Source: Komagataeibacter xylinus
GTDB lineage: Bacteria > Pseudomonadota > Alphaproteobacteria > Acetobacterales > Acetobacteraceae
DNA length: 64,000 bases
Reading direction: 5' to 3'
Assembly (NCBI RefSeq): GCF_004302915.1
Contig: NZ_QQBI01000008.1
Location: 61,576 to 125,575 of the forward strand
Positions within the stretch are counted from its first letter, which is position 1. Each line of letters begins with the position of its first letter. The position numbers and the translations under genes were made by a program. Shown here one piece after another: positions 47,385-64,000 of this stretch. The notes beneath the pieces were generated by a model. The model saw only the letters and a program-made list of their open reading frames with translations. It was not told the origin of the DNA and did not search any database.

Positions 47385-47677
47385 TCATCCCCTAAAATTA
47401 TCAATAAAATCAGTCTTTTGTGGCGTCACGTCTGGGTTTCATCCACGATTAAACCCATGATGAGCGATGCGCTTTCCGGGGACGTTCTGACACGTCCAGA
47501 CCGGTTTTGAACGCGGTTTGGCCCTGTTCCAAACCCTCATAATCACTCCCCATCATTTCACATCCCAAGTGGTCCTGCCTGCGGTCACCAGCCTACAGGC
47601 GGCAGCTCCCTTGCTCTGGTTGAAAATTGTAAGGAAGCCTTGCTGTGGATGACTGCGCCCTGGTGCATGGGGCCTAA
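47385..47677. other. Region between tRNA and recombinase, no gene seen
   Basis: No ORF with a ribosome site and no copy of the tRNA 3' end was found by eye. It marks the probable left edge of the accessory region. Confidence 0.4.
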
Positions 47678-48226
47678 TCAGCCAGCCACTTTCCCCAGGC
47701 ACCGATAGACAGACGTGCGACCAATTCCCAGCCGCCGGGCGATCTCGGTCGGGCTGATCCCCTCCGCATTCATGGCATGGATCTGGTCGCGGTCGATGGA
47801 TGGTCTGCGCCCCTTATAGACACCGCGCTCCTTGGCCGCCGCGATCCCTTCCATCTGGCGCTCCTTGCGGAGGTTGGTCTCGAACTCCGCGAACACCCCC
47901 AGCATATCGAGGAACGCCTTGCCGGCTGCCGTGCCGGTATCGACGGGCTGCTCCGTGCATTGCAGTTGCGCGCCCTTGGCCTTCACCTCCGCGATGATGG
48001 TTTGCAGGTCAGCTATGGAACGGGCCAGCCGGTCTATGCGCGTCACCACCAGAACATCACCCTCCCGGAGGAAGGCCAGCAGCGTTTCCAGTTCGGACCG
48101 CCCTTCCCTGCTCGTGCCGGATTTCTTCTCGACGCGGATCATGTCGCACCCGGCGTTGGTGAGTGCTTCCTCCTGCGTGGCAGCGTTCTGATCGATGGTC
48201 GAGACGCGGGCATATCCGTATCGCAT
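47678..48226 (-). CDS. Serine recombinase (resolvase/invertase family)
   Basis: 182 residues, complete. The catalytic N-terminus YGYARVSTIDQN holds the nucleophile Ser. TRIDRLARSIADL and LGVFAEFETNLRKERQMEGI are the resolvase core motifs. A C-terminal helix-turn-helix (SPTEIARRLGIGRTSVYRCL) follows. It would resolve, invert or mobilise DNA at short crossover sites. Inverted GTGTTCC-type motifs lie in its upstream region and may be its or another protein's sites. Confidence 0.92.
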   Translation of the reverse strand: MRYGYARVSTIDQNAATQEEALTNAGCDMIRVEKKSGTSREGRSELETLLAFLREGDVLVVTRIDRLARSIADLQTIIAEVKAKGAQLQCTEQPVDTGTAAGKAFLDMLGVFAEFETNLRKERQMEGIAAAKERGVYKGRRPSIDRDQIHAMNAEGISPTEIARRLGIGRTSVYRCLGKVAG

Positions 48227-48242
48227 GGCGTGATCCCTAAAA

Positions 48243-48373
48243 GTGTTCCGTTTGGGTCTAGACCCTCACCCATAATGTTCCATTTGCAATTAGACAACCC
48301 TAATGGAACACGGAAAGCCGCCATTCGGGTGTTCCGCTCCGTTGCACCGTATCGGTATACCCTTCTGGAACAC
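48243..48373. repeat. Cluster of GTGTTCC(G/A) motifs upstream of recombinase
   Basis: GTGTTCCG (48243 and 48329) and TGGAACAC (48304 and 48366) occur in both orientations. TGTTCCATT (48276) and AATGGAACA (48302) form a 9-bp inverted repeat. The same core makes up the iteron array at 56.05-56.29 kb. Confidence 0.75.
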
Positions 48374-48527
48374 GCAGACGCACCGGGAAACACCGGGACA
48401 TATCATCCGGGTTTCATGCTCGTTCAGGACAGTACCGATCACCCCATGGCAACCAACCAAAGCATTTGCGCTTTCTGATTATGAGATGCCCTGTCCCCCC
48501 TCTTCGATCAGAGCCTAAGGACTTCAT

Positions 48528-49106
48528 ATGCCTGTCATCCGCATAACGGTTACGGACGAGCAGAAAGCGGCCATTGAAAGCGCAGGTTCTGCTGACCTTG
48601 CGGCATATATCCATGCTGCGGTGCTCAGGCAGATCGCTTACGATCAATCCCAAGACCAAATGACAGATATGTTGCAGAGGGTTGAACTTGCTCTCGCGCG
48701 CCTGGAGCAGACCTTAGAAAGGGCTGAATCTGCGCCGATTACCCCCACCGCGGCCGTGAGGGAGACAGGACACAGAGGCAAACTTACCTCCCGTGCAGAA
48801 CTTGCCCGACGGCTTGGCCGATCAGAACGAACGCTCAGGCGATATCTTCCCGCTGTGCCCGGCCTTTCGGGCGTAAAGATCGGTCGCACGGTCTACTTCA
48901 CCAATGCAGATATCGAACGAATTCAAGACTCCTTCCGTTGCCCTTATCCCGCGGCAAGAGAGGTTTCTGATGCTTCCGGCACACTTCGCTCCGTATCGAC
49001 CGTAAACCTATCACGGTCAAAAAGCACGGCGCGCGATGCATTGGTCGCACGCATGAAAAAGTTGCTGGATGAGCAGAAAAAGGGAAGATCCAAAAAGCAG
49101 CCATAA
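48528..49106 (+). CDS. Ribbon-helix-helix plus helix-turn-helix DNA-binding protein
   Basis: 192 residues. The N-terminal MPVIRITVTDEQKAAIESAG segment and following helices look like a ribbon-helix-helix domain. A coiled segment (LQRVELALARLEQTLERAE) joins it to a helix-turn-helix (SRAELARRLGRSERTLRRYL). A basic tail ends the protein. The N-terminus is related to that of the 120-residue protein nearby. Roles in plasmid/island partition or transfer are possible. AAGGA precedes the ATG. Confidence 0.65.
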   Translation: MPVIRITVTDEQKAAIESAGSADLAAYIHAAVLRQIAYDQSQDQMTDMLQRVELALARLEQTLERAESAPITPTAAVRETGHRGKLTSRAELARRLGRSERTLRRYLPAVPGLSGVKIGRTVYFTNADIERIQDSFRCPYPAAREVSDASGTLRSVSTVNLSRSKSTARDALVARMKKLLDEQKKGRSKKQP

Positions 49107-49223
49107 CGGATTGTGGAGAGCATCACCCGGAGTGCGTGGCTTGATGCCAGCAGCGCGAGGTCAATTCTTTAGCCGCCCGCAATTTTTTCACTCCCTAAAA
49201 ACGCGCGCGCGAGGCTGCCCCAT

Positions 49224-49502
49224 CTACTTAGGGGGTGCAGCGTCCTTGTGGCCCAATAGCCGGTCCACGGCCTGCTGATCCTTCTGAATCATCGCCAGCA
49301 AGGTGCGGGCTGCAGGATCAGGCTTCCGGCGTCCTTGCTCCCAGTCGGCCATAGCAGAAGCGGTAAAGCCATACCGCCTGGCAAATGCGGCCTGTGACAT
49401 TGGGTAGTACCGGCTTTGAGGGTTCCGTGCCCCTTGCCTGATGCTGAACACGTCCACCACCTCCGGCGGTGTCCATTCGGATATGGGTTTGGTGCCTGCC
49501 AT
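49224..49502 (-). CDS. XRE-family regulator (HigA/NadS antitoxin-like)
   Basis: 92 residues. MSQAAFARRYGFTASAMADWEQGRRKPDPAARTLLAMIQKD is the helix-turn-helix pattern of single-domain antitoxin-type regulators. No toxin gene is recognisable next to it, so it may act as a stand-alone repressor. Three inverted-repeat motifs lie further upstream. Confidence 0.8.
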   Translation of the reverse strand: MAGTKPISEWTPPEVVDVFSIRQGARNPQSRYYPMSQAAFARRYGFTASAMADWEQGRRKPDPAARTLLAMIQKDQQAVDRLLGHKDAAPPK

Positions 49503-50060: not shown

Positions 50061-50423
50061 TTACCGGATACTCAGCGGAGGCCAGCCCGCCTGCTTCACA
50101 CTCGCTATGGCGGAGGTCGTCTTGCCCGGCTGTATGATGCCACGCAACTGCAGCACCACCTCGGCCAGCATCCCCATAACCTCCGGCGACACGTCTGCCT
50201 TCACGGGTGCGTCCGGCTTGGCATGGGCCCTATCCAGCCTATCCGCCAGACGCCCGACAGTGCGCTCAAGGTCAAACAGCCGGTATTCGATCCTGTCCAA
50301 TCGCTCACTCTGTTCCACCTGCCTGAACACCGCGTCACGAATGTATTGGGACTGGTTCACCCCACACACCGCATCGAGGTCCATTTTCTGCTGTTCGGTC
50401 ACTTTGAAGGTGATGATTGGCAT
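50061..50423 (-). CDS. Ribbon-helix-helix-type protein (120 aa)
   Basis: The N-terminus MPIITFKVTEQQKMDLDAV with SQYIRDAVFRQVEQSERLDR resembles a ribbon-helix-helix DNA-binding dimer followed by a coiled segment. It resembles the N-terminal half of the 192-residue protein at 48.5 kb, so the two are probably paralogues. Such proteins act as partition or relaxosome accessory factors on plasmids. The role here is unproved. Confidence 0.6.
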   Translation of the reverse strand: MPIITFKVTEQQKMDLDAVCGVNQSQYIRDAVFRQVEQSERLDRIEYRLFDLERTVGRLADRLDRAHAKPDAPVKADVSPEVMGMLAEVVLQLRGIIQPGKTTSAIASVKQAGWPPLSIR

Positions 50424-50709: not shown

Positions 50710-51168
50710 ATGCCGATCAAGCGAAAAGCCGTCGCCGTGATGCGCAAGCGACTGCCGTGGATCGAGCGCAAGATGCAGGATGGATACAGCCGGAAAGCCG
50801 TCTGGGAGATGCTCAGGACACAGGAGCGGCTATCCCTCACGTTCAGCTCATTCATCACTACCCTGGCCCGCGTCCGGCAAGAGCATGAACTGACCCGGCC
50901 GAAGCGACAGGTCATTCATCGCAAGCGCGCCACGGTGGCATGGAAAACCACTCCTCCCGCACAGAACGATCAGGGCACTGAAGCCCCGCCAACCGAAATG
51001 CCGATGACTGGTGATGAGGGAACCGCCATGACGGAGGTGCCCCCGAGCAGCGAACATCCCCTGCCGGACCATTCGACGGTGCCTGATGCGCCCGAAGCTG
51101 ACGAGGCCACAGACGAGAACAGAGAAGGCAAACGGAAGGGATTTTTCAGCCGCTTGTTTGGTGCATAG
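50710..51168 (+). CDS. TraK/DUF5338-like plasmid-type protein (tentative)
   Basis: 152 residues. The N-terminal part (about 10-60; RLPWIERKMQDGYSRKAVWEMLRTQERLSLTFSSFITTLARVR) resembles the small DNA-binding domain of TraK-type conjugation accessory proteins. The rest is acidic and Pro-rich, ending in the amphipathic motif GFFSRLFGA. The call is tentative. It leads the HTH, tape-measure and TerS genes on the same strand. Confidence 0.5.
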   Translation: MPIKRKAVAVMRKRLPWIERKMQDGYSRKAVWEMLRTQERLSLTFSSFITTLARVRQEHELTRPKRQVIHRKRATVAWKTTPPAQNDQGTEAPPTEMPMTGDEGTAMTEVPPSSEHPLPDHSTVPDAPEADEATDENREGKRKGFFSRLFGA

Positions 51169-51180
51169 GGAGACGCGACA

Positions 51181-51453
51181 ATGGATGGTGCATTACCGCG
51201 CTGGCTAGATCGAAAGGCACTGGCTCATTACCTTTCAATCAGTCCCAATCGCGTTCGTTATCTTCAGCAAGCAGGAAAACTGCCACAGACGAATTATCAC
51301 CTCGGCCCACGCTCACCGCGCTGGGACAGGCATGAAGTTGATAAAAAAATGCTTGAAGGCAGCGATACAGCGAAAAAAAAGCAAGACATGGACGCTATTG
51401 TTGCCAAGATTTGTGAAGAAAACCGCAATTATAGACACCGGCGCAAAAAGTGA
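51181..51453 (+). CDS. Excisionase/AlpA-like helix-turn-helix protein (90 aa)
   Basis: LDRKALAHYLSISPNRVRYLQQAGKLP followed by RWDRHEVDK is the winged-helix pattern of small MerR/excisionase-type DNA-binding proteins. The C-terminal half is strongly basic. It starts 12 bases after the previous gene. A regulator or recombination directionality factor is possible. Confidence 0.55.
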   Translation: MDGALPRWLDRKALAHYLSISPNRVRYLQQAGKLPQTNYHLGPRSPRWDRHEVDKKMLEGSDTAKKKQDMDAIVAKICEENRNYRHRRKK

Positions 51454-51622: not shown

Positions 51623-53605
51623 ATGTCTGATGACTTCCTGTTCGGCCTAAAATTCAATTTTGATCCAACTGACTTCCTGCGTGGCTCTGCCGAGGCGCAG
51701 GACGAACTGGAGCGCATGGTGGCCGGCATGGCGCATGCGCGGCGCCGGTCGGAGGAAAATGTAGAAGGTCTAGCTCGGTCTCTTTCCCTGAGCACGACTG
51801 AGGTCCGGGCCGCCCTGAAGGAAATTGAGCACGCCGAGCGCGATCATGCCAGAGAGAGCGCGCGCATCAACCGGGACGCCGAACGCGACCGAGCGCAGCA
51901 GGAACAGATTGCAGCACGGCGGCGCGTTGAGCGCGAGCGGGCGGAAATGACCTCCATCCGCGAGCGAACGCAGGCCGTAGCGCAGCTGAGGGATACACTG
52001 CTTTCCGTGGCCGCCATCACCCTTGGCGAGAAAGGAGTGGCAGGTCTCAACAACCTGCTACAGGAGACTTCGGCACGAGGTGTTGATGAGCAGAACTTTG
52101 CGCAGCGCACCAACACAAGCATACGGGCCAATGTTGCGGAAGAAGAGGGTGCCTATCTCTCGGGGAGGTCAAGCCGCGAAGAGGCGCGGCAGAGCATTGG
52201 CGCATATTCAAACGCACAGGTGGAATATCGGCGCACCGGACAGTCTGAACTGACAAACGCCCTTCTGCGTTCTGGCGTTCAGCTTTCTCCGGAACAATTG
52301 CGCATGAACCATGCCGCCTTCGTCCAGTATGTGGTTGGGCAGTTACGCGGTCTTGGATATGACGATCAGGTTTCGGCCTCCATTCTCGACCAGTCAGGCC
52401 TGACTTCGGGCGGATATACGAACCTGGCCCTTCATCCCGACGAGATGCGCCGGTTTAACGCGGAAGGGGACCGCCGCGCCCAAAGCATCGCGGGAAACAC
52501 CGATCGGGACCTTGAGTTTCAAAGATCGTGGCGCAACCTCATGGAGGATGTTGGGACATTCCGGACAGATATCGCCCACGACCTGGAACCATGGGTAGAC
52601 CAACTAGACGGATGGGTAAAGAAATGGGATCAGTTCTGCAAAGATCATCCCGACAAAGTAAGTGAGATCACGACCGCCACAGCCGTTGCCGTTGCCCTTG
52701 GAGGCCTATTTTCCGCCATAGCACCTATAGTCGGCACGCTCATTGGCATGCGTGGCCTTCTCAAAGGAGCCGGATTACTGAAGGATGGCGCAACGCTGAT
52801 TGGCCGTGGAGGTGCAGCGACCGTACGGGGCGGGGCTGCCGTCATTGCTGATAACCCCATCGTGGCCGCGGCAACGGTTGCCGGCGCGGCAGGATACGCG
52901 GCCTACAAAGAAATCAGCTATGACCGATCCGATGCAGGGCGGATTGCCAATAACCTGAAGGCGATGCGCGATCCTCATTATGGGGCAAATCGTTATAGCG
53001 CCCTTGAGAAGAACCAGCGCGAATATGAGCTGACGCAGTATCTGATGAAATCGCGTGGCTACACCCCCGAGCAGGCAGCGGCTGTGGCCGCCATGGCGCG
53101 ATCGGAAGGTGGATTCAACACGGAAGCCATCGGCGATAGCGGGTACGCTGAGGGCATGTTCCAGTGGCATGCACCCCGGCGCAAGGCCATCGAGGCCCAT
53201 TTCGGGATGCGCCTGTCGCGCATGACTATGGAACAGCAAGCCGATGCCTTAGATTGGGAAATGCATAATGTTGATGGCGTAAAATCGGCAGGCAGGCGAC
53301 TGTTCGGGTCAGGCCATGATCTCCATGCTGCCGTTCGTGGCGCGCTTGATGCTGAATTGCCCAAGGAATACATAAAAAACGGCGTCAGGGGGCGAGAATA
53401 TGCCGATAGATTTGCCATGTCTGCCGCTGCCTTGCGCCGAATATCAACGCCAACACCTCAAGTTGCTTCGGGCAACACAACTCAGATCCACATGCAGAAC
53501 GTGACGGTGAAGGCCAATAATCCGCAGCAGCTTGTCGACCAGACGCGGAAAATGGCGCTCACGCCGCACGATTACGCATCCAGTGCAAACTCAGGACAGT
53601 TCTGA
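51623..53605 (+). CDS. Phage tail tape-measure-like protein with tail lysozyme domain
   Basis: 660 residues. The N-terminal third is coiled-coil rich (EEIEHAERDHARESARINRDAERDRAQQEQ type). A glycine-rich hydrophobic region follows (about 350-430). A phage tail lysozyme domain (about 470-590) then has SRGYTPEQAAAVAAMARSEGGFN, with the likely catalytic Glu, and GYAEGMFQWHAPRR. Tape measures set tail length and help DNA entry; the lysozyme domain would open peptidoglycan. No capsid, portal, tube or baseplate gene accompanies it. The terS gene follows after one base. Confidence 0.75.
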   Translation: MSDDFLFGLKFNFDPTDFLRGSAEAQDELERMVAGMAHARRRSEENVEGLARSLSLSTTEVRAALKEIEHAERDHARESARINRDAERDRAQQEQIAARRRVERERAEMTSIRERTQAVAQLRDTLLSVAAITLGEKGVAGLNNLLQETSARGVDEQNFAQRTNTSIRANVAEEEGAYLSGRSSREEARQSIGAYSNAQVEYRRTGQSELTNALLRSGVQLSPEQLRMNHAAFVQYVVGQLRGLGYDDQVSASILDQSGLTSGGYTNLALHPDEMRRFNAEGDRRAQSIAGNTDRDLEFQRSWRNLMEDVGTFRTDIAHDLEPWVDQLDGWVKKWDQFCKDHPDKVSEITTATAVAVALGGLFSAIAPIVGTLIGMRGLLKGAGLLKDGATLIGRGGAATVRGGAAVIADNPIVAAATVAGAAGYAAYKEISYDRSDAGRIANNLKAMRDPHYGANRYSALEKNQREYELTQYLMKSRGYTPEQAAAVAAMARSEGGFNTEAIGDSGYAEGMFQWHAPRRKAIEAHFGMRLSRMTMEQQADALDWEMHNVDGVKSAGRRLFGSGHDLHAAVRGALDAELPKEYIKNGVRGREYADRFAMSAAALRRISTPTPQVASGNTTQIHMQNVTVKANNPQQLVDQTRKMALTPHDYASSANSGQF

Positions 53606-53606
53606 G

Positions 53607-54107
53607 GTGCAAACCCTGACGCCCAAGCAGGCGCGTTTCGTTCAGGAATACCTCATAGACCTAAACGCAACGCAGGCGGCCATCCGGGCTGGATATAGCT
53701 CGAAAGCTGCCAACCGAGAAGGTGCGCGCCTGCTGGCAAATGTAGACATTGAAAGCGCTGTTCAGAACGCAATGGCCGCCCGAGCCACCCGCACATTGGT
53801 TTCGCAGGATCTCATCATCAGGGAACTTGCCCGGATAGCCTTTTCTGACATCCGGGGGCTGCTCGATGACGAGGGGAAGATGCTTCCCGTGAGCGAATGG
53901 CCTGCTGATTTAGCGGCCTGCGTCTCGTCTCTGAAAGACGGGGATGCCGGACGTGAGGTCAAAATGTGGGACAAGATGTCTGCACTCGAAAAGCTCATGA
54001 AGCACATGGGCATGTTTGAGACAGATAATACCCAGGCATCTGCTGCCCCGAGCAAGATCAACGTGACATTCGTAAATTCAGGAAGCCGGGCACGGCAAGG
54101 CGAATAA
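53607..54107 (+). CDS. terS: Terminase small subunit
   Basis: 166 residues from a GTG start just after the tape-measure stop. LTPKQARFVQEYLIDLNATQAAIRAGYSSKAANREGARLLANVDIESAVQNAM is the conserved DNA-binding segment of the Terminase_2 small-subunit family, followed by an oligomerisation region. TerS recognises the packaging site and directs the large terminase to it. No large subunit is encoded nearby. A longer ATG start at 53532 would overlap the upstream gene. Confidence 0.88.
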   Translation: MQTLTPKQARFVQEYLIDLNATQAAIRAGYSSKAANREGARLLANVDIESAVQNAMAARATRTLVSQDLIIRELARIAFSDIRGLLDDEGKMLPVSEWPADLAACVSSLKDGDAGREVKMWDKMSALEKLMKHMGMFETDNTQASAAPSKINVTFVNSGSRARQGE

Positions 54108-54118: not shown

Positions 54119-54640
54119 TCAGGCATGTCCAACATTATGGCGGATGCTGATACCCAGCTTTTGCCAGCGCCGCGCAGCAGCCTGTGCAATGCGACTGGCA
54201 TAGCTTTTTGCAAAATCAGTGCAAATATCGTTCTCCGCGGCTTCGCATACCATCTGAACAGACATATCCATCAACAGGGCGGCGAAATCTTGACCCGTCT
54301 TGCCCGCCCCTAATGCCTGTTCTGCTATACGCTGCCCCATAAACTCCGCTGTCAGATTGGCAGGCGTGCAGACAGAACCAGCAGAATACAATTCGGTCAG
54401 CCGATCCGCTGCTCCCTGTCGAACTTTTGCCATGGCAGCCTCAATTTCTTCCACTGGGGCCGTCTGCTTCTTGGTCATGGTGTATCGGATATGTTCGCAC
54501 ATGTAGGCGATTTCCGCCTGAGCCTCGAGCATCCCGTTGGCATGCGCATGAGCACTGTTAGCGAAGACCGCGCCCAGGTCGTTTTCCAACTTATCGTCAT
54601 CCCCTGCCACTGCAGACGGAGTGTTCTGTTTCTGGCTCAC
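54119..54640 (-). CDS. Hypothetical protein (173 aa)
   Basis: A mostly helical soluble protein (EAQAEIAYMCEHIRYTMTKKQTAPVEEIEAAMAKVRQGAADRL, FAKSYASRIAQAAARRWQKLG). No family recognised. It is the last gene of the leftward operon and converges on terS with an 11-base gap. Confidence 0.55.
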   Translation of the reverse strand: MSQKQNTPSAVAGDDDKLENDLGAVFANSAHAHANGMLEAQAEIAYMCEHIRYTMTKKQTAPVEEIEAAMAKVRQGAADRLTELYSAGSVCTPANLTAEFMGQRIAEQALGAGKTGQDFAALLMDMSVQMVCEAAENDICTDFAKSYASRIAQAAARRWQKLGISIRHNVGHA

Positions 54641-54712: not shown

Positions 54713-55324
54713 TCAGACCTGTTCCCTGTCATCAATGCTATCGGCACCAGGGTCGTCGCCATTGTCTTCATCATCTGGCGTGAAGAACTTCTGCAGGTAG
54801 TCCATAGCGGCCCAGAAACTCTGGTGCCGGATCTCGTTCCTCAGCCGGGCGTCCGTGATGCCCTCCGCCCATCGGGAGAGGTATCGGAACGTGTTTTCTA
54901 TCGCCTGGGTGTTATCGAGGTTGTGGGTGTAGGCCATATGGGCGGCGACCCTCTCGCCCATAACCTCCCCACCATAAACACCGGGCATGCGCTTCCAGAG
55001 CCGGTCCTCATTGGTGACAGAGGGCCCTGCCGGATAAGGTCGGGACGTATCCATCACCGTCACGTCATGGATGGCGGCCATGCGCAGGGCAAACCGGCGC
55101 TGGTCGGACAATGGCCCTGCGCTGGCGATCTGTCCCACGCTCATATCCTGAAACCAGCAATACAGGTGCCAGCGATCGGGTACCGGCTTTTCATCCGTTC
55201 CCATGACCGGCTCGATCGTCAGATAGCGCACGGAAGGCCAGTGGATCATATCGGGCAACACGATCGCCCTTGTGGTGCGCCCCTTCACGCTGCGAATCAG
55301 GCGCGTTTCATTCTTGTTGCTCAT
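54713..55324 (-). CDS. Hypothetical protein (203 aa)
   Basis: A soluble protein with a Trp-rich middle and a very acidic C-terminus (DDEDNGDDPGADSIDDRE). Its ATG overlaps the stop of the zinc-ribbon gene (ATGA), so it belongs to the primase operon. No domain recognised. Confidence 0.55.
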   Translation of the reverse strand: MSNKNETRLIRSVKGRTTRAIVLPDMIHWPSVRYLTIEPVMGTDEKPVPDRWHLYCWFQDMSVGQIASAGPLSDQRRFALRMAAIHDVTVMDTSRPYPAGPSVTNEDRLWKRMPGVYGGEVMGERVAAHMAYTHNLDNTQAIENTFRYLSRWAEGITDARLRNEIRHQSFWAAMDYLQKFFTPDDEDNGDDPGADSIDDREQV

Positions 55325-56013: not shown

Positions 56014-56047
56014 ATGTCGTGTTCCGGCCCGACACATGAAAAATGCG

Positions 56048-56292: not shown

Positions 56293-56328
56293 CGCAAAAA
56301 CACTGACCCGGAGCCGGACGGGGGAATG

Positions 56329-58923
56329 TCACGCATCGTCATCCCCCATGATCGCGCTGCTGACGACATAGACGCGCGACCGGCCCACGTCAGGGATGCG
56401 CACGGACTGCGACATGCGCCCCGATGGATCTGGCAGCAGGTAGCCCGCATCACACAGCGCACGGGCCGCCCGCTTGGCGTCCAGCCCCTTGCACACCTCC
56501 TTGCGGAACATCTCGGGCAGCAGCAGGTATTGCCACTGGTCGCCCTCCGGCGTGCCAACACGCCGTTTGAACCCGGCACGGTAATTGGTGCGGATGTTCT
56601 CGTTGGCGACCACCTCGCCATCGGTGTCACGGCTGAGGTTGGTGAAGCGGCTTTCCCCATGCTCCTCGATAAAGGCCCGCACCTGTTCGATGGCCTGCTG
56701 GTCCTCGCTGGCCCCTGCCCCGCCACGTTCGGCCAGCCATGACTGGAAGCACGCACCCGCCGCGCGGAAGGCCTCACCACCCTGCCAGGGCAGCACGCCA
56801 TATCCGGCCGCCAGTTCACCGCCTGCCGCGATCAGGGAAAAGCGGGCCGACACGCTGCGCACCTGACCATCAGCCCCTTCGGGCAGGAAGGCATCGTCAA
56901 AGCGGGCACGGATGGCCTTGATGGCCTCAAGCAGCCCATCCGCATCATTGCCGCGGTCCTGAGCCAGACGCGACAGGAAGGCCCGCGACGCCGTGCCATA
57001 CCAGGTGCGCGAAGCCACACGCAGGTGGTCGGACAGCGCACCGCCGGATTCCATATCGTGCAGGTTCTCGAATGCGCCCATCCCGGCCCCGGCATCGGCG
57101 GAGATGTTCACGAGGCGCACCTCCTGCCCGGCCATCGTGCGCTTGCCTGCCTCGCCCATCTTGGCGGCCAGGGTGACCTCGCCGGTCGAGAGGAAGAACA
57201 CCCGCCATGTCTTGCGGGTGCGGGCATTGCCGCTGCGCCCGGCGCGCATCTTCCCGGTGTTGTTGGCCAGCATGTAGATGATGTCCCCGACCTCGCGGCT
57301 GTCGGCCTGCCCCATCTCATCAAGGATCAGGACGGTATCGGAGGTTTCGGACGCCACGCCTTCCAGCCCGTTGGCCGTGCCGCGCCATGCACGAATCTGG
57401 CCATCACGATCGCCACGCCCCCACACGCTGCCTGCAATATAGGCGGAGGTGGACTTACCGGACTGGGACTTGCCGACCAGATGGATGCCGCCGGACTGCT
57501 CACCGGCAATGTCCAGCAGCGGTCCGGCAAAGGCTGCGGACAGGAACAGGGCAAGACGGCTGTTACCCACGGCATAGGCCGCTACTTCGCGCTGCCATTC
57601 GGCCAGGGTGCCAGCCGTGGCGAACTCCTGCCCGATGGCGGCACGGGTGGACTGGAACACCACGGCGCGCGCACCGCTGCCCATCGTAACCCCGCCGGGC
57701 AAGATAAAGGCTGGCCCGCTGCTGGTGGCATGCCATCCGGCCCGGTCCACGCAGCGCAGGCGGGTGCGGGTCTTCACGCTGGCGATGAACTGGCGGAGGT
57801 GGCGCGTGGCGGAAATGGAGCAGTTCAGCCCGGCATCTTCCAACTCACCCGCGATCTCCTTGCCTTCGCCATGCACCAGCTTCTTGGGGATGGCCCACTG
57901 GTGTGGGCGGTGGTCGCGGTCTGCCCAGCGGATCAGAAGGCCCCATGCCTGCCCGGTGCCGTCGTTGGTTTCAGCCACCACATCGAAGGGCGCTGCAATC
58001 CAGACAGGGGATGGTGGCAGGTCGCCTGTGGCCTCGGGCATGAAGTTCAGGCCGAAGCGGTTCATGTAATAGCCGTGGGGCATTTCCACGTTGGGCGCGG
58101 CCAGCGGGGCCTTGTCCAGCAGCGGGCGCAGGATCTCCATATCCGGCACGTCGCCGCCCTGTGTCATGTCGAACGGCAGGTCGTCTGCCAGATCCCACCC
58201 CGGCGGCAGGCCGGTCGGCAGTTCGACCTTGCGCGTGATCCCTCCCCCTACTTCGCGCAGCAAACGGATCACATCATCTGCCCAGGACTGACCCGCATCG
58301 TCATTGTCCGGCCAGATGGTGACGCTCCGCCCGGCCAGGGGCGACCAGTCATTGTTGGCCGCCGCCTTACTGCCACCCTGCGAGGTCATGACCACGAAAT
58401 CGGGAAACAGGCGGCCGGCCGCCTCCGCTGTCTTTTCACCTTCCACCAGCAGCACGGGCGCATCCCCAAAGGCGGCAAGCTGGTCCAGCCCATAGAGCGG
58501 TAGCGGCTTTGCGCCCTGCTTCCAGTGCCAGCCCGTCGCATCGTGGCGGTTGCCGCGGCTATCGGTCCAGACCCGGTGGCCATAAGACAGTGGCAACACC
58601 ACCTTGCCACCAGCACCGTCATCCTTGCGGAAACGGGCACAGAGCGGCTGGCCGTCCGCATCGCGGTAGACCCACATGGCGGAGGCGCCACGCGGCATGT
58701 CTGGCGCGCACGGAGCGGGGCTGACAGGTTCCCATATCTCGCGCCCATCATCTGCGGGGGCTGTTCCCTGCCGTTCGACCTCCGACAGCGGGGCAAAGGC
58801 GGTTTCGATGCCGGGTGTAAGGTCCATGACATTGCCGAAATTATCGACGGAGGTGGCAGGCACGGCGATATGCGGATCAGGTGCAGGATCGGTGTAGTCG
58901 ATGGGCATGTCGGTTTCGTTCAT
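56329..58923 (-). CDS. TOPRIM-DUF927 primase-helicase (pri-rep type)
   Basis: 864 residues. A TOPRIM-like primase region has LLVEGEKTAEAA (about 157) and SVTIWPDNDDAGQSWADDV (about 205). The DUF927 helicase-like part has Walker A GKSQSGKS (about 484) and Walker B VLILDEMGQ. A winged-helix-like C-terminus follows. Proteins of this layout initiate and unwind replication of phage satellites and some plasmids. It is fed by the zinc-domain gene upstream (ATGA overlap), and an iteron array lies just beyond its 3' end. Confidence 0.85.
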   Translation of the reverse strand: MNETDMPIDYTDPAPDPHIAVPATSVDNFGNVMDLTPGIETAFAPLSEVERQGTAPADDGREIWEPVSPAPCAPDMPRGASAMWVYRDADGQPLCARFRKDDGAGGKVVLPLSYGHRVWTDSRGNRHDATGWHWKQGAKPLPLYGLDQLAAFGDAPVLLVEGEKTAEAAGRLFPDFVVMTSQGGSKAAANNDWSPLAGRSVTIWPDNDDAGQSWADDVIRLLREVGGGITRKVELPTGLPPGWDLADDLPFDMTQGGDVPDMEILRPLLDKAPLAAPNVEMPHGYYMNRFGLNFMPEATGDLPPSPVWIAAPFDVVAETNDGTGQAWGLLIRWADRDHRPHQWAIPKKLVHGEGKEIAGELEDAGLNCSISATRHLRQFIASVKTRTRLRCVDRAGWHATSSGPAFILPGGVTMGSGARAVVFQSTRAAIGQEFATAGTLAEWQREVAAYAVGNSRLALFLSAAFAGPLLDIAGEQSGGIHLVGKSQSGKSTSAYIAGSVWGRGDRDGQIRAWRGTANGLEGVASETSDTVLILDEMGQADSREVGDIIYMLANNTGKMRAGRSGNARTRKTWRVFFLSTGEVTLAAKMGEAGKRTMAGQEVRLVNISADAGAGMGAFENLHDMESGGALSDHLRVASRTWYGTASRAFLSRLAQDRGNDADGLLEAIKAIRARFDDAFLPEGADGQVRSVSARFSLIAAGGELAAGYGVLPWQGGEAFRAAGACFQSWLAERGGAGASEDQQAIEQVRAFIEEHGESRFTNLSRDTDGEVVANENIRTNYRAGFKRRVGTPEGDQWQYLLLPEMFRKEVCKGLDAKRAARALCDAGYLLPDPSGRMSQSVRIPDVGRSRVYVVSSAIMGDDDA

Positions 58924-59228
58924 GCGTCACCTCCCAGCCCCAGCATGGTCGCCAGACGGGCTGCGGCCTCGCCCTGGCGGATATTGAACAGGTAGGCGGC
59001 CAGCGATACGGGATCACCGCCCCGGTCGCCCGTGGCAAAGTCAGACCAGCGGCAGGTATTCATGTTCACCTTGAAAGAGCCCGGTTCGCGGTCGCCGCGC
59101 CGGGGATTGCGAGCCACCCATTCGTGGCCTTCACGCTTGCCGTCCGGCAGCCAGCGCCCCAGCAGGGCAGGCAATGCGACCAGGGCGGCACGATTGATAC
59201 GCTCGAAGTCGATACGGTGCTGGGTCAT
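58920..59228 (-). CDS. Primase zinc-domain-like small protein (102 aa)
   Basis: EWVARNPRRGDREPGSFKVNMNTCRWSDFATGDRGGDPVSLAAYL is the pattern found in N-terminal zinc/DNA-binding domains of DnaG-like and satellite primases, here as a separate protein. It probably helps template recognition by the primase-helicase. Its stop overlaps the primase-helicase start, and its start overlaps the upstream gene, both as ATGA. Confidence 0.7.
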   Translation of the reverse strand: MTQHRIDFERINRAALVALPALLGRWLPDGKREGHEWVARNPRRGDREPGSFKVNMNTCRWSDFATGDRGGDPVSLAAYLFNIRQGEAAARLATMLGLGGDA

Positions 59229-59497
59229 GGCTGCAGCTCCCGCCCCAGCGCCACATCGCGCATGATGGTCGCCGCGCCGACCAGCACCTCAAGGGCCTGT
59301 GGTCCGGCACGCTCCAGTTCCAGCCCCAGAAGGTGGCTCATGGCGGAGAACGCCGCGCACTGGGCAATGCTGCGCCCCTCACCCAAGGGGGGCGGGTCCT
59401 GTGCGATGCAGCGTTCCAGCTGATCGAGGTAGTCGCGCGTCATGGCCCGCACCATCTGCTGGCGCGTGGCGGCGTCAAAAGCAGTGGTTTGGCTCAT
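59225..59497 (-). CDS. Hypothetical protein (90 aa)
   Basis: A helical soluble protein (RQQMVRAMTRDYLDQLERCIAQD, AQCAAFSAMSHLLGLELERAGPQALEVL). No domain recognised. It is coupled by ATGA overlap to the primase zinc-domain gene. Confidence 0.6.
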   Translation of the reverse strand: MSQTTAFDAATRQQMVRAMTRDYLDQLERCIAQDPPPLGEGRSIAQCAAFSAMSHLLGLELERAGPQALEVLVGAATIMRDVALGRELQP

Positions 59498-59722: not shown

Positions 59723-59920
59723 TCAGGCATTGTCGGGCTGCGTCAGCGAGGCGATCCATGCGGCGTAGCTGTCTGCCGTAATCCGCGTGGCCCGCCCGAT
59801 CTTCACCCGGACCAGTGTCCCTGCAGCCATCAGGCGATGGACGGTGGAGCGACTGGCTCCTGTCTCTCGCATGACATCATCGATCCGCAAGAGGACACGG
59901 TCGGTCAAGGCAATCGGCAT
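59723..59920 (-). CDS. alpA: AlpA-family transcriptional regulator/excisionase
   Basis: 65 residues. LLRIDDVMRETGASRSTVHRLMAAGTLVRVKIGRATRITADSYAAWI is the classic AlpA/phage-regulatory helix-turn-helix. In phage satellites AlpA turns on the replication/packaging operon or excision. GGAG precedes this ATG; the upstream in-frame start is less likely. It lies upstream of the pri-rep genes on the same strand. Confidence 0.85.
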   Translation of the reverse strand: MPIALTDRVLLRIDDVMRETGASRSTVHRLMAAGTLVRVKIGRATRITADSYAAWIASLTQPDNA

Positions 59921-60031
59921 GTGTGGGAATCTCCATATCCATTGCGACACGTCCTGACGTGTCATGGATTCTGAAATATTCCCATTATCATGCAGGTTTC
60001 CAGACAGAAGGACGGCCCGACGTTTCGTCCC

Positions 60032-60712
60032 TTAGAGATTTTTGTAGGGATCTATTTTCATACGCCGACATAGATAAAGAAACCTGCCCTGGTCGTAATC
60101 CTCCCAGAACAGACCACGATTTCTGAAACGCCGCCCTTCCCTGATACGCCTGCGACGCCTGGAATGATCCATTTCCCCCAATTCACGAGACAAGGCGTCC
60201 AAAGCCTCCCGTGAACTCAATCCATTTGTGAGCAGGCAATCATATAATGCGGCCTCATAGGCCTTCTGACGCATTGAGGCCAGCTGAGCGAAAGCATTGT
60301 AGCCTCGACGCGTAAAATTTAAGGCCTGTGGCAATAACGCGATGGCTTCTTTTGGCAAAACTGGGCCCGGATTTCGATCCAAGTCCGTCTCATATTTCTC
60401 CATGACCTCGCCCGTAACGCGCGCGCCGCGTGCAAGATAAGCAATCGCGTCCGCTGTTTCCAAGAAGAAGTCCGCCATTTCTGGCATAATGAATATATCT
60501 GAGACTGAAGTTCCCTCCCGCTCAGGATCTTCGTCAAAAATACAACTTCTTTTCAGATACTCTTGTATTTTCGTCCACATCAAAACTGGATTATCCAATT
60601 CATAGGCCAGTCTCATGGTGTCTCTGAGCTTCTGTCGATATTCCTCATTAGGGGTAAGACCATAGCCATAACCGGAACCAATCACCCCCAGTTCTTCATC
60701 ATCGTCAGCCAT
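60032..60712 (-). CDS. Hypothetical protein (226 aa)
   Basis: Lower GC than its neighbours and charged/helical. The acidic N-terminus (DDDEELGVIG) contrasts with a basic C-terminal part (SRRRRRIREGRRFRNRG). No domain recognised. It is separated from the genes on either side by over 100 bases, so it is probably transcribed from its own promoter. Confidence 0.6.
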   Translation of the reverse strand: MADDDEELGVIGSGYGYGLTPNEEYRQKLRDTMRLAYELDNPVLMWTKIQEYLKRSCIFDEDPEREGTSVSDIFIMPEMADFFLETADAIAYLARGARVTGEVMEKYETDLDRNPGPVLPKEAIALLPQALNFTRRGYNAFAQLASMRQKAYEAALYDCLLTNGLSSREALDALSRELGEMDHSRRRRRIREGRRFRNRGLFWEDYDQGRFLYLCRRMKIDPYKNL

Positions 60713-60844: not shown

Positions 60845-61174
60845 TCATGACAGGCAGTCCTCAATGGCGTGGGCATATCGACCGATCCCATCGGCCAGCC
60901 ATGCCAGTTCAGTGCCGGTCTGTTTGTCCCCCTCCGCCATGCGGGCCAGTATCCCGGCCATGACACTGATTTCCGTGGTGGCAGCCTGTATGGCCGCCAG
61001 CCGGTCGGGCGTTGCCAGGCTGGGCGGCGCTGTATGCGCGCGCCATGCCCGGTGGCAGGACGCAGAACTGCTGCCCATCGCCTCGCCTACCTCGCGCCAT
61101 GACAGGCCCTCTTTGCGGAGGTGTTCAATCCGGCGCAGGTCGCGGGCAGACCAGGTGCGTGCGGGGCGGCTCAT
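60845..61174 (-). CDS. Helix-turn-helix protein (109 aa)
   Basis: WSARDLRRIEHLRKEGLSWREVGEAMGSSSASCHRAWRAH resembles a homeodomain/Myb-like or phage-type helix-turn-helix. The C-terminal part is helical. It is coupled to the upstream gene by ATGA overlap. Confidence 0.55.
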   Translation of the reverse strand: MSRPARTWSARDLRRIEHLRKEGLSWREVGEAMGSSSASCHRAWRAHTAPPSLATPDRLAAIQAATTEISVMAGILARMAEGDKQTGTELAWLADGIGRYAHAIEDCLS

Positions 61175-61470
61175 GCCCGGCCCTCCGGATCTGCGGACAG
61201 GAAAGCGATGAAAGCCGGATCCATCGTTAGTTCGACCCAACGGGCTTTCCCCGCCTGGGCGATGGTCTCGACCACGTAATGCATCTGCTCACGGGACGCA
61301 CCGCCTTCCTTCCAGATGGAAAAGCCAATGGCATAGGCCGCGCCCTGCAGGTAATCGAGCAGCTTTGCCGCCCCTTCCCCGTCTGAGAACGTCTGTTCGG
61401 CTATCTGCCAGCCTATGAACTGCAGGTCCGGCACGATCGGCGTGACCGGGGCTTCCGGGCTCTTGCTCAT
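61171..61470 (-). CDS. Hypothetical protein (99 aa)
   Basis: A soluble protein with LQFIGWQIAEQTFSDGEGAAKLLDYLQGAAYAIGFSIWKEGG. No domain recognised. Four-base overlaps with both neighbours place it in the leftward operon. Confidence 0.55.
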   Translation of the reverse strand: MSKSPEAPVTPIVPDLQFIGWQIAEQTFSDGEGAAKLLDYLQGAAYAIGFSIWKEGGASREQMHYVVETIAQAGKARWVELTMDPAFIAFLSADPEGRA

Positions 61471-61589
61471 GGCTTTACCTCCGCCCACAGGCGCATCGTC
61501 AGGATACCCAGCGCGTTGCCAGCCCGGATCGTCCAGGCCGATAGCGGGATGAGAAACCACAGGGCTGCGTGGATCAGGATGCGTTTCAT
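61467..61589 (-). CDS. 40-residue membrane peptide
   Basis: A short gene with a perfect GGAGGG ribosome site 5 bases before the ATG and ATGA overlaps on both sides, which argues that it is real. The product has one hydrophobic segment (ILIHAALWFLIPLSAW) and a basic N-terminus. Function unknown. Confidence 0.55.
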   Translation of the reverse strand: MKRILIHAALWFLIPLSAWTIRAGNALGILTMRLWAEVKP

Positions 61590-61933
61590 GATTGCCCTCC
61601 TGCGATCAGACGGCCGAGGATGTAGACCTGCCGATATTCCTTCACACCGGGCGCATTGCGGCCACTGTGATAGGGCGTGCGGCCATAACGGAGGCTACGC
61701 GGACCACAGGCAGGACGTGCCTTGTCCTTCCATACCGGTGCGATTTCCGGGGATTTATTGAAGACAGCGACCGCCAGTTCCCCGTTGTCCACGTTGGGGT
61801 CGTTGGCATCGAACAGGCAGAGACGCCCATCAATCATGATAATGCCCATGCCATCGCGGATCTGGAGCGGCGGAACGGTGGAAGCCGGTGCCGGTGCGCC
61901 ACGGCGGCGCATCCAATGAGGAATAAGGTTCAT
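61586..61933 (-). CDS. Hypothetical protein (115 aa)
   Basis: Contains LQIRDGMGIIMIDGRLCLFDANDPNVDNG and YGRTPYHSGRNAPGVKEYRQVYILGR. No domain recognised. It is coupled by ATGA overlap to the small membrane peptide downstream. Confidence 0.5.
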   Translation of the reverse strand: MNLIPHWMRRRGAPAPASTVPPLQIRDGMGIIMIDGRLCLFDANDPNVDNGELAVAVFNKSPEIAPVWKDKARPACGPRSLRYGRTPYHSGRNAPGVKEYRQVYILGRLIAGGQS

Positions 61934-61934
61934 G

Positions 61935-62156
61935 TCACACACGCTCCGCAATGGCCGCGCATCGGCGCTCTATCTCTTGGGCCGCCCATTCCACGGCCAT
62001 TCCGAAGCCCTGTAGGGCAATATCTGGATGCGGTTCATCTCTGGTGGTCATGGATCGACCTGCGAGGATCAAAAGGCGCGCAAGCTGGTCAATGTCGTGG
62101 CGCGCATCGTGGACTGCCATGATCGCGCTTTTCTCAAACTGGTAGAGATCGCTCAC
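61935..62156 (-). CDS. Hypothetical protein (73 aa)
   Basis: A helical soluble protein (QFEKSAIMAVHDARHDIDQLARLLILAG, EWAAQEIERRCAAIAERV). ATGA overlap with the upstream gene. No domain recognised. Confidence 0.5.
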   Translation of the reverse strand: MSDLYQFEKSAIMAVHDARHDIDQLARLLILAGRSMTTRDEPHPDIALQGFGMAVEWAAQEIERRCAAIAERV

Positions 62157-62413
62157 TTCGCCTCTCCCTTCATCGCCAGAATGTCGCGCGCCAGGCTGGC
62201 CTCAATCTGCTTGGGGTCTGGGTCGAACAGCATCACCAGCCGGGCCTTGTCCTGTAGGTCGGCAAAGGATCGGGCCGGGGTCTGGACCACCTTGCAATAG
62301 GCGGCCCGGAAACGGTCTGACTGGGCCTGCGCATTGGCCGTGGCCGGTTCTTTGCAGCAGCGGCGATCGGCGCCAAGAGCGGCCAGCGTGGCCTTACGGA
62401 TGGGGCTGGTCAT
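62153..62413 (-). CDS. Hypothetical protein (86 aa)
   Basis: A basic N-terminus and helical C-terminus (LQDKARLVMLFDPDPKQIEASLARDILAMKGEAK). Coupled at both ends. No domain recognised. Confidence 0.5.
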   Translation of the reverse strand: MTSPIRKATLAALGADRRCCKEPATANAQAQSDRFRAAYCKVVQTPARSFADLQDKARLVMLFDPDPKQIEASLARDILAMKGEAK

Positions 62414-62604
62414 TCTGCCTGCCCTCCATCTGTAGGAAGCCCCAGCCATGCCCGATCCAGCTCGCCATATATCCGCTTCACCCAACCGGCCAGAAACTCC
62501 AGCGGAGGCGGTTCTGATGCAGCAATCAGGCCATCCAGTATGGTGTGCAGGCAGCCAAGGTCACAGACGACCGCATGCACGCGATCTCTCGGTGTCTCGC
62601 TCAT
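62410..62604 (-). CDS. Hypothetical protein (64 aa)
   Basis: A short helical protein (RVHAVVCDLGCLHTILDGLIAASE, FLAGWVKRIYGELDRAWLGL). ATGA overlaps on both sides; the longer frame upstream overlaps the previous gene and was not used. Confidence 0.5.
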   Translation of the reverse strand: MSETPRDRVHAVVCDLGCLHTILDGLIAASEPPPLEFLAGWVKRIYGELDRAWLGLPTDGGQAE

Positions 62605-62864
62605 CGGGCCACCTCCGCCAGCGCGATCACTGTGGGGTGGGGTTTCAGGCCGCCGTGGCGCAGAACCTCCGGCTGGGCGAACCCGGCCAGAGCGAGCAGG
62701 AGCAGCGCAGGGAAGATCAGCCCGGCCGCCAGATGCTCGGATGTGAGTAAGAGGGTTTTCCCAACTTTGGGAAAAAGGGAGCCGAGTACGCTTGTACCCA
62801 GCCGAGAGCATGCCCATGTGTGTCTGGGCGTGCTATAGGCACGGTTAGCCATTGCCGAATTCAT
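62601..62864 (-). CDS. Possible first gene of the leftward operon, small membrane protein
   Basis: A hydrophobic segment (GLIFPALLLLALAGFA) with flanking polar residues. Its stop overlaps the next start (ATGA). The start is uncertain: a 20-bp palindrome lies inside the 5' part of the open frame, so translation may begin downstream at a non-ATG codon or the 5' part may be leader. Confidence 0.35.
   Translation of the reverse strand: MNSAMANRAYSTPRHTWACSRLGTSVLGSLFPKVGKTLLLTSEHLAAGLIFPALLLLALAGFAQPEVLRHGGLKPHPTVIALAEVAR
62756..62775. promoter_or_regulatory. Perfect palindrome TTTTCCCAA-N2-TTGGGAAAA
   Basis: 9-bp perfect arms with a 2-base centre near the start of the leftward operon. Position and symmetry suggest an operator for that operon. 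Confidence 0.6.
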
Positions 62865-62937
62865 CCTTCGGTTGTGGTTAGGCCGGGCGCGGGAGCTTCC
62901 ACCTTCCCGTCCGGCTGCCTTGCCAAAGAGCGCAAGG

Positions 62938-62997
62938 TCGCTACACTGTCCACAAGTTTCACCCCTTGGTCAACCCAAGATCGACACAGTGTAGCGA
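62938..62997. promoter_or_regulatory. Inverted repeat TCGCTACACTGT before the XRE gene
   Basis: 12-bp perfect arms (62938-62949 and 62986-62997) separated by 36 bases, directly upstream of the rightward repressor gene. Two half-operators at helical spacing would suit a looping or divergent-switch repressor. Confidence 0.7.
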
Positions 62998-63004
62998 AGT
63001 TTAT

Positions 63005-63238
63005 ATGACCCCAGAACAGTGCAGGATGGCCCGAGCGGGTCTTAACCTAGGCGTGCGGGAATTGGCCGAGCTTGCTCAGGTCTCCACCAACACGATTACC
63101 CGCCTTGAGCGTGGAGAATCGCTTTATCCCCGTACGGTCGAAGCCATCCGCGCCGCCCTGGAGGCGGCTGGGGTCGAGTTCATCGCTGAGAATGGTGGTG
63201 GGGCTGGCGTGCGGTTGAGGAAATTACAGCACTATTGA
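63005..63238 (+). CDS. XRE-family repressor candidate (77 aa)
   Basis: MARAGLNLGVRELAELAQVSTNTITRLERGESLYPRTVEAIRAALEAAGVEFI is a compact helix-turn-helix domain of the Cro/CI type. It diverges from the leftward operon across the two palindromes, the arrangement of a phage or satellite master switch. It is the most likely repressor of the leftward operon. Confidence 0.82.
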   Translation: MTPEQCRMARAGLNLGVRELAELAQVSTNTITRLERGESLYPRTVEAIRAALEAAGVEFIAENGGGAGVRLRKLQHY

Positions 63239-63350
63239 CGATTTCAAGATAAAAGCTCAATAAACCAGCGGCAATTAATTTTATGGGATAGGTTATGATC
63301 CATAAATAATATTGCTAATTTTGAAACTTTTCCGTAAAGGTTGATGCGAT

Positions 63351-63536
63351 ATGTCAGAAAATTCAGGAATTAGCATGCTAAATTTTCAAGGATTTATTGG
63401 AAATGGAGTCGTGTATAATTCATCAACAAATATGGTTACTATCTATTTTTCGGCAGAGAACCAGAAATGGGACGTCACTTTGACAAAAGATCAAGCTCAG
63501 TCACTGCTCACGAAGCTACAAGACGCCATTAAATAA
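63351..63536 (+). CDS. Small low-GC hypothetical protein (61 aa)
   Basis: AAAGG lies before the ATG. The protein is polar with no signal peptide (FQGFIGNGVVYNSSTNMVTIYFSAENQKWDVTLTKDQAQSLLTKLQDAIK), possibly a small beta-rich domain. Base composition is far more AT-rich than the rest of the window. Function unknown. Confidence 0.5.
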   Translation: MSENSGISMLNFQGFIGNGVVYNSSTNMVTIYFSAENQKWDVTLTKDQAQSLLTKLQDAIK

Positions 63537-64000
63537 AGGCATGCTGGCTGCGTCCATCAGGCGCTGCCAGCAAAAAAACGACTTCCCCTCCGCACGCCCC
63601 ACTATCCCCTTTTTTATGGACTCAAGAAATTCAGAGACTACACTTGCTGGCCACATTCAAACCTTTGATTGTTTTTCAAACGATGGCTGTTCTCTGCCAA
63701 TTTTAGCGCGATTAAATCAAAGCGAGAAGGTTAGGCCCGCCACCGCCTCAGCGTCTTCACCGTGTTGGCCCAAAGCAATTCCAGAAACGATCCACTTTCA
63801 GCCGCCATTGAGCAATGCAGAACCGTAGGTGGCTTGCCCGTAGACCATCATCCTTAACATCGTGCTCCTTGAGCAGCTGATTCGCCAGACTCGCCGAGGA
63901 TATGGGAAGTTGCGTTCTATCTAACTGTCTGAATCAAAAAGCGACCTGATTGATTTTCCGCAGCACTCTGCGGATATGAGCGATCATAAGCCAAGCTTCA
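63537..64000. other. Window end, no gene identified
   Basis: Moderate-GC sequence with short open frames only. No complete transposase, RNA gene or attachment-site duplicate is recognised. The accessory region probably continues beyond the window. Confidence 0.4.

Follow-up and report, generated by a model that had tools for sequence, protein, structure and literature searches.

What kind of element carries, beside a tRNA gene and a replication module of its own, a gene for a small terminase subunit (TerS) and a gene for a tape-measure protein (TMP)? The question is raised by positions 47,385 to 64,000 of a 64,000-nucleotide stretch of Komagataeibacter xylinus DNA (assembly GCF_004302915.1, contig NZ_QQBI01000008.1; G000:C90:61576-125575 in the numbering used here), called the window below, whose right edge coincides with the end of contig C90. 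An original prediction, made from the letters alone, had seen in this region a satellite resembling a phage-inducible chromosomal island (PICI). On the evidence of its genes and by analogy with known satellites, the region is probably a PICI-type phage satellite integrated in a tRNA-Arg gene, in which TerS would steer the packaging motor of a helper phage onto island DNA and the TMP would be built into helper tails. This reading is supported because closed relatives of 13.4-17.9 kb carry attachment (att) repeats, an integrase, a helicase of the Pri-Rep type and iterons, and because empty integration sites exist; the part of the prediction that made a serine enzyme the integrase proved wrong. 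The conserved tape-measure gene beside terS sets the island apart from ordinary islands. The features on which the argument turns are listed below; profile scans took in 20 of the 25 candidate window genes, the five omitted ones encoding 61-135 amino acids (aa).

47308..47384, plus strand: tRNA-Arg(CCG) gene, left edge of the island (ARAGORN)
47678..48226, minus strand: small serine recombinase of resolvase/invertase size, 182 aa (Resolvase, 3e-40)
51626..53605, plus strand: tape-measure protein, 659 aa (PHROG TMP, 1e-26; PF18013, 1e-13)
53532..54107, plus strand: TerS, terminase small subunit (Terminase_2, 8e-42)
56018..56294, no strand: iteron array, predicted replication origin
56329..58923, minus strand: TOPRIM-DUF927 primase-helicase of Pri-Rep type, 864 aa (DUF927, 8e-76)
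58920..59228, minus strand: 102-aa protein, encoded next to the DUF927 gene in 22 of 29 related loci (CHC2, E 0.073; one cysteine)
59723..59965, minus strand: AlpA-like helix-turn-helix (HTH) regulator (HTH_17 above cut-off; PHROG excisionase/regulator, 1e-10)
62966..63238, plus strand: XRE regulator divergent from the leftward operon, predicted immunity switch
63924..64000, no strand: end of an IS5-type element at the contig end, an assembly break inside the island

Borders and integrase of the island

The tRNA-Arg gene, already named as the edge of the region in the original prediction, ends in TTTCGAGTCCGCCAT, a 15-bp att copy that starts at 47371 and represents attL. The same word is repeated at C36:3295, outside the window on another contig, with 201 bp between it and the start of a gene for a tyrosine integrase; this is the duplicate of the tRNA 3' end (attR) that was to be looked for beyond the window. 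The 19 best site loci from 19 genomes of the genus, G000 included, were compared. The left flank is present in all 19, and five of them (L147-L151) have an empty site, in which a left flank and tRNA 92-95% identical to those of the window are followed by sequence 85-92% identical to C36 to the right of attR. The C36-type right flank begins at its first base in L147, L148 and L151, after 120 unmatched bases in L150, and after 167 in L149. Because the left flank and the C36 right flank are joined in five congeners, the site is established in its occupied and its empty form together with both att copies, and C36, judged by these junctions, holds the right end of the same island as the window.

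The known extent of the island is 16.6 kb on C90 and 3.3 kb on C36. An IS5-type end closes C90 and an IS21-type end opens C36, and the assembly gap bounded by these two insertion-sequence (IS) ends lies inside the island. Closure by contig overlap was tried; the IS5 end, used as a query, fell at 4 places on 4 contigs and the IS21 end at 21 places, so the middle of the island was not joined. Elsewhere in the genome, 57 bp beyond a tRNA-Asn gene, 231 bp at G000:C35:63663-63892 (L005, about 13664-13893) are 91% identical to the left end of the island (window 47454-47684). No island-protein match was found in the 20-kb stretch around this remnant, which is likely the scar of a former island at a second target site.

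The tyrosine integrase (398 aa, C36:1898-3094) has Arm-DNA-bind_3, Phage_int_M and Phage_integrase domains. Because it adjoins attR, and because the empty sites carry the left flank of the window together with the right flank of C36, the integrase of the island is of the tyrosine type. A serine recombinase in place of a tyrosine integrase, as the original prediction had it, is ruled out by this enzyme and by attR on C36. The serine recombinase gene itself is present where it had been seen, and its size and family identify the product as a small accessory resolvase/invertase, 98% identical in the islands of G311 and G307 and 53% identical in that of G281. C36 also carries an XRE and Peptidase_M78 (ImmA/IrrE-type) pair.

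Closed relatives and the body plan of a PICI

Three closed islands, in G281 (13.4 kb), G189 (13.9 kb) and G222 (15.4 kb), occupy the same tRNA-Arg gene, are bounded by repeats of 16-17 bp and have the integrase at the far end. A fourth, of 17.9 kb, lies in a tRNA-Asn gene of K. xylinus CGMCC 21569 (L097/L138) with a 31-bp repeat, and its backbone is the closest to that of the window, the three longest matching blocks being 95-96% and the others 77-96% identical in DNA. All four share att repeats, an integrase and a primase-helicase with iterons. In addition, an island with the same left and right ends is found on two contigs of another, K. swingsii-like Komagataeibacter, G307, in tRNA-Asn and with a 32-bp repeat.

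The original prediction had called for a search of the family for the same gene order without phage structural genes, and within the PHROG families covered the four closed relatives are islands without such annotation. The scans took in open reading frames (ORFs) from 85 aa upwards that passed a GC3 filter or exceeded 200 aa, 162 of 227 ORFs in all, with one ORF added by hand and ORFs crossing stretch borders omitted. The 75 ORFs of G281 and G189 gave no capsid, portal, tail, structural or terminase annotation in the full PHROG list, where they matched integrases, regulators, primases, an invertase, an antitoxin, DNA-binding proteins and unknowns. The 87 ORFs of G222 and CGMCC 21569 gave no structural or terminase annotation among 25 of 39 PHROG families.

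PICIs are described as having specific att sites, PICI genes, an iteron origin 3' of pri-rep, an optional terS, and phage-dependent induction and packaging (PMC6092414). Of their anatomical features, the island has an att site with its own tyrosine integrase, an AlpA-like regulator, where Gram-negative PICIs have one of AlpA or MerR type, and a pri-rep gene with a predicted iteron origin immediately 3' of it. The AlpA assignment of the original prediction holds as far as an excisionase/regulator-like HTH protein is concerned, 99% identical in CGMCC 21569, and not at the level of the AlpA family itself, the PF05930 match (E 0.0023) being below cut-off. PICIs also have no structural genes apart from those that redirect packaging or capsids; none is annotated in the PHROG families covered for the closed relatives, and the window island has the TMP gene and an unsequenced gap. 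Genes of capsid-forming PICIs (cf-PICIs) or of prophages, namely capsid, portal, terL and a tail operon, are absent from the window part and from C36:1-3310, the gap being unsequenced, and a full prophage beyond the window edge finds no support on C36:1-3310 or in the closed relatives.

As portrayed in the same source, the Gram-negative PICIs EcCICFT073 and PmCI172 resemble this island in att integration, int at one end, AlpA, pri-rep with iterons 3' of it, an optional terS and accessory genes (PMC6092414), and the 13.4-17.9 kb of the closed Komagataeibacter relatives are a further likeness. The present island differs from these PICIs in its alphaproteobacterial host family, in its tape-measure gene and additional small serine recombinase, in having a second array of iterons on the side of the integrase, and in a TMP-terS pair on the strand opposite to the main operon.

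Tape-measure gene and terS

The tape-measure gene of the original prediction is confirmed and conserved. In its product the N- and C-terminal parts are conserved and residues 469-557 make up a phage tail lysozyme domain (PF18013), and a search of 5.8 billion proteins gave 22 homologues, the window's own included, 21 of them 623-724 aa long. An intact copy, 86% identical, is found in the G307 island, with a ratio of non-synonymous to synonymous substitution (dN/dS) of 0.24 over 659 codons. The tape-measure gene is under purifying selection. Divergence from G307 is concentrated in codons 111-330, where dS is 1.0-1.8 versus 0.08-0.27 elsewhere, and the middle part of the window TMP (about residues 150-350) is closer to P0003 than to the otherwise closest P0002, a K. 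swingsii record. These patterns point to a gene that is recombining as well as selected, and not to a dead remnant.

The closest prophage relatives of the TMP in the genomes searched are those of G158 and G201, the former in a prophage with a DUF3383 protein and a large terminase subunit (TerL) of the Terminase_6 family. Their TMPs, of 744 and 736 aa with starts placed at the first ATG, GTG or TTG, on which these lengths depend, align from residue 5 to 409 or 372 and again at the C-terminus, at 31-40% identity. With starts so chosen, both are longer than the island TMP, by 77-85 aa. Alignment of the TMP to IMG/VR gave two loci, which carry G158- and G201-type prophages, and single-protein scans of viral contigs with the TMP and the DUF927 protein found no relatives. 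Among phage records, the TMP had one weak match, over 11% of its length, and terS had 289, all below 60% identity.

The combination of terS without terL is likewise borne out in the sequenced parts of the island. A database version of TerS, of 166 aa, would begin at GTG 53607, just after the TMP stop. For both genes the island copy is the sole match in this genome, terS having no second copy at E 0.001.

A replication module with two iteron arrays

The TOPRIM-DUF927 primase-helicase also stands as predicted. Its N-terminal part is TOPRIM/DnaG-like (DUF6371, 9e-8; DnaG matches in Foldseek), and 86 of the 299 family genomes sampled, G000 included, encode a relative at E 1e-20 or better; in this and two other surveys of the family (299, 299 and 397 genomes), only a few best candidates per genome were scored. 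The structural model (mean pLDDT 82) has as best Foldseek matches SCCmec Cch (E 4e-23) and SaPIbov1 Rep (8e-19), with DnaG primase cores among the next. The helicase fold is shared with SaPIbov1 Rep (PDB 8tch) and SCCmec Cch (PDB 5dgk) over about 610 alignment columns, and sequence similarity to both is detectable as well. Unlike them, the island protein is fused to a TOPRIM primase-like part, and identity in the structural alignment is 15-16%. A separate zinc-domain protein had been placed beside the helicase; the gene at 58920 is there, and its zinc-domain character, given the CHC2 score and the single cysteine, is less certain than had been said.

Directly 3' of the primase-helicase gene lies the iteron array that had been noticed in the original prediction; GTGTTCC occurs in it 13 times within about 280 bp, in either orientation and often at a spacing of 9 bp. 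The 8-mer GTGTTCCA occurs 15 times in the window versus 1.14 expected, a count reached in 0 of 100 shuffles, and 11 of the 15 copies fall within 56048-56292. A second array, of 7 copies, lies at C36:160-352, and its arrangement repeats that of the right-hand portion of the first. Eight elements (G000, G281, G189, G222, G247, CGMCC 21569, G307 and, with 4 copies, G142) have a distal array of this kind on the integrase side. Among related loci, 20 of 29 have an 8-mer repeated at least four times in the 510-base stretch at the helicase stop, as raw counts without shuffle control, and the iteron words vary from lineage to lineage.

This variation bears on how the origin is recognised. Nine close helicase sequences, chosen by hand after removal of the duplicate loci L010, L040 and L046, gave 36 pairs. 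Where the core is at least 90% identical and the iteron is the same (2 pairs), the C-terminal ~90 residues are 91-100% identical; where the core is equally close and the iteron differs (5 pairs), they are 66-79% identical. Because the identity of the C-terminal domain follows iteron sameness among close pairs, this domain may be the iteron reader, exchanged together with its array. The coupling is seen clearly among close pairs only: the window and L047 share an iteron, and their C-terminal domains are 56% identical, versus 49-57% against L048, L009 and L011, which have different iterons. Furthermore, origin and distal arrays match in six elements with both read (G000, G189, G222, G247, CGMCC 21569 and G142), and in G281 they do not, the origin array being built of GTCGGGCA (L038, 19326-19850) and the distal array of GGAACACC (L039, 8176-8525). 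Because the G281 arrays are unmatched, and because distant pairs with the same iteron show little extra similarity, the coupling is something that we infer. An unrelated cluster, of 6 copies of the 8-mer AGAACCCT in 250 bp, lies at window 24376-24825.

A proposed life cycle

If the island is a satellite, infection or induction of a helper would relieve the XRE repressor, and AlpA would switch on excision. The TOPRIM-DUF927 protein would then bind the iterons through its C-terminal domain and replicate the excised circle, and the island TerS would pair with the TerL of the helper. Finally, the short island TMP would replace the helper's own and give chimeric, probably shorter, tails, as in the Vibrio PLE satellites.

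The PLEs build their own TMP into chimeric tails according to a 2026 paper (PMC12987554). The PLE11 TMP replaces that of the helper in particles, the two lengths differing by 95 aa and PLE11 tails being about 10 nm shorter, and deletion of tmp lowered transduction by 96-99.9% in three PLEs (PMC12987554). By analogy with PLE11, the island TMP, which falls short of its prophage relatives by 77-85 aa, is predicted in the tails of particles that carry island DNA. What the island has in common with V. cholerae PLE1, PLE4 and PLE11 is a satellite-encoded alternative TMP. The PLEs are described as also encoding a tail assembly chaperone, and PLE11 a baseplate hub (PMC12987554), neither of which was recognised here, and the terS gene and AlpA/DUF927 backbone of the present island set it apart from them. 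The same paper, in the legend to its Extended Data Fig. 10, lists cf-PICIs with a putative tmp, which are likewise satellites outside the Vibrionaceae with such a gene; unlike these, which form their own capsids, the island has no capsid, portal or terL gene in its sequenced parts. In the open-access library searched, no paper on satellites and prophages in Komagataeibacter was found, and for satellites with tape-measure or tail-length genes PMC12987554 was the relevant one among the papers listed.

It is tempting to go further, although here doubt outweighs confidence: the island may represent a satellite lineage, independent of the Vibrio PLEs, that reprograms a helper in two ways at once, using its own TerS to redirect DNA packaging and its own shorter, lysozyme-domain TMP to alter the assembly of tails, and so gives chimeric-tailed particles. 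It would do so with a lone TMP, having no chaperone, hub or capsid gene, and with a two-array iteron origin whose recognition domain is swapped along with the iteron.

Evidence to the contrary and alternative explanations

Several observations weigh against a satellite that packages and tails itself in this way. The stretch between the IS5 and IS21 ends is unsequenced and leaves room for further phage genes. In CGMCC 21569 the TMP gene is missing and terS is reduced to a match at residues 62-102; in G307 terS matches at residues 1-31 only, and neither the helicase gene nor the replication module was found on the TMP contig. There terS adjoins genes of the 62153 type, and both islands look like deletion derivatives of an ancestor that had TMP and terS together. 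In the closed islands of G281, G189 and G222, neither TMP nor terS nor the AlpA-like protein found a match. Scans of 20 window proteins showed no recognisable family of tail assembly chaperones or hubs, so that under the model a lone TMP would have to work with the chaperone of the helper. No distal array was found within 1.5 kb of four further integrases (three of G277, one of G307), in loci that are short. Finally, the one resident prophage examined, on G000:C19 (L058, L176), has a GpA-type large terminase, a lambda-family portal and, at the tape-measure position, a 664-aa SLT-domain protein that has no detectable similarity to the island TMP. This prophage was set aside as the resident helper on account of its GpA-type TerL and dissimilar TMP; no other part of the genome was searched for helpers.

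The alternative that survives best, unlikely as it is, is a satellite whose short TMP mainly spoils helper tails as a dominant-negative protein and forms no part of its own particles. Defence systems of satellites and prophages (Tai, Tab, Rta) are known to act on the assembly of tails (PMC11364771, PMC10884400, PMC12987554), and related islands carry restriction-type genes. However, conserved N- and C-terminal parts and a lysozyme domain are not obviously needed for interference alone, and the PLE tmp is required for efficient transduction (PMC12987554). Still less likely is a decayed prophage, in which terS and TMP would be what is left of a vanished phage, now joined to a tRNA island unrelated to it and without present role. 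The truncation of terS in both closest relatives, the deletion of TMP in one of them, the lack of any recognised chaperone or other tail gene, and the three other closed islands without terS or TMP would all fit such decay. It is at odds with a TMP that is full length in two islands under the constraint given above, with a middle part nearer P0003 than P0002, as expected of a gene pool that is still recombining, and with terS and TMP each having the island copy as its one match in this genome.

An integrated or mobilisable plasmid (integrative and mobilisable element, IME), with a tRNA-targeting integrase and with stability and resolvase genes, is more improbable again. A StbA/DUF5338-like gene and the small resolvase are also compatible with a plasmid origin, and about 0.7 kb is common, at 92% identity, to K. 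nataicola plasmids; yet scans of 20 proteins from the window and 3 from C36 gave no relaxase or conjugation family, the gap being unsequenced, and the terS and TMP genes and the SaPI/SCC-type helicase speak against it. Least probable is a P4-type satellite in place of a PICI, since for all the AlpA, the integrase architecture, which we take to be like that of the P4 integrase, and the two separated arrays of G000, G281, G189, G222, G247, CGMCC 21569 and G142, the distant one presumably like P4 crr, the helicase is of the DUF927/SaPI Rep/Cch type and no family described as psu, sid or delta was found in the PHROG lists, which cover 20 of the 25 window genes, the full set of families for G281 and G189, and 25 of 39 families for G222 and CGMCC 21569.

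Other genes, cargo and related elements

The remaining genes of the satellite candidate within the window are as follows.

48528..49106, plus strand: HTH protein, excisionase/regulator-like (PHROG 66/1840, E 7e-10/2e-9)
49224..49502, minus strand: XRE-like regulator, 93-100% identical in the G189, G222 and G307 islands
50061..50423, minus strand: 120-aa protein, no assigned family
50710..51168, plus strand: StbA/DUF5338-like protein, plasmid-stability type, both matches below cut-off
51181..51453, plus strand: 90-aa HTH/excisionase-like protein, just upstream of the tape-measure gene
54119..54640, minus strand: 173-aa protein, no family above cut-off
54713..55324, minus strand: 203-aa protein with distant matches in G277 and G247 elements
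55321..55995, minus strand: 224-aa protein, relatives of which adjoin the helicase gene in several related elements
59225..59497, minus strand: 90-aa protein, 76% identical in G281 and 100% in K. xylinus (G311)
60032..60712, minus strand: 226-aa protein, no function assigned
60845..62817, minus strand: leader part of the leftward operon, six small genes (60845, 61171, 61586, 61935, 62153, 62410)

The integrase, main operon and resolvase are transcribed in one direction, and the XRE gene, some accessory genes and the TMP-terS pair in the other; the unidirectional transcription described for PICIs is seen here in part. The divergent XRE gene and the long leftward operon described in the original prediction are both there; the ATGA coupling ascribed to the operon is limited to 4 of 12 junctions examined, which have 4-bp overlaps of that type. 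Several of the leader genes are common to the G189, G222, G281 and CGMCC 21569 islands, and the CGMCC 21569 copy of the 50061 gene is matched at 33% by residues 1-76 of the 48528 product.

Restriction-type cargo is found in two of the closed relatives, as a C-5 methylase with a NgoMIV-type enzyme in CGMCC 21569 and as an HSDR_N protein in G222, and elsewhere as a SmaI-type enzyme with a methylase in G142 and an Mrr-type protein in G307. The HSDR_N-type gene of the G222 island (L044:14911-16053) recurs in a G309 prophage (L108:14274-15416), with 363 of 380 residues identical, and from its presence in both, prophages and islands appear to exchange cargo. On the K. nataicola plasmids pKNA06 (L076, NZ_CP019881.1) and unnamed5 (L077, NZ_CP134887.1), the stretch that resembles the island operon is accompanied by genes for VapE, ParA, a resolvase-family recombinase and a DUF2213 protein, in an arrangement that is partly duplicated. 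It is possible that these are plasmid-form satellites or relatives of phage-plasmids.

Implications

The 2026 paper demonstrated tail reprogramming by satellites in one Vibrio family (PMC12987554). The paired change of iterons and helicase C-terminal domain would lend itself, as data supplied by nature, to the study of how satellites keep their origins distinct. Komagataeibacter, bacteria of vinegar and cellulose, can be grown in culture, so the idea of a chimeric tail is directly testable in them. If it is true, a PICI-type island in a distant host, with a conserved, lone TMP gene beside terS, would mean that tail reprogramming is general and workable with a single swapped protein.

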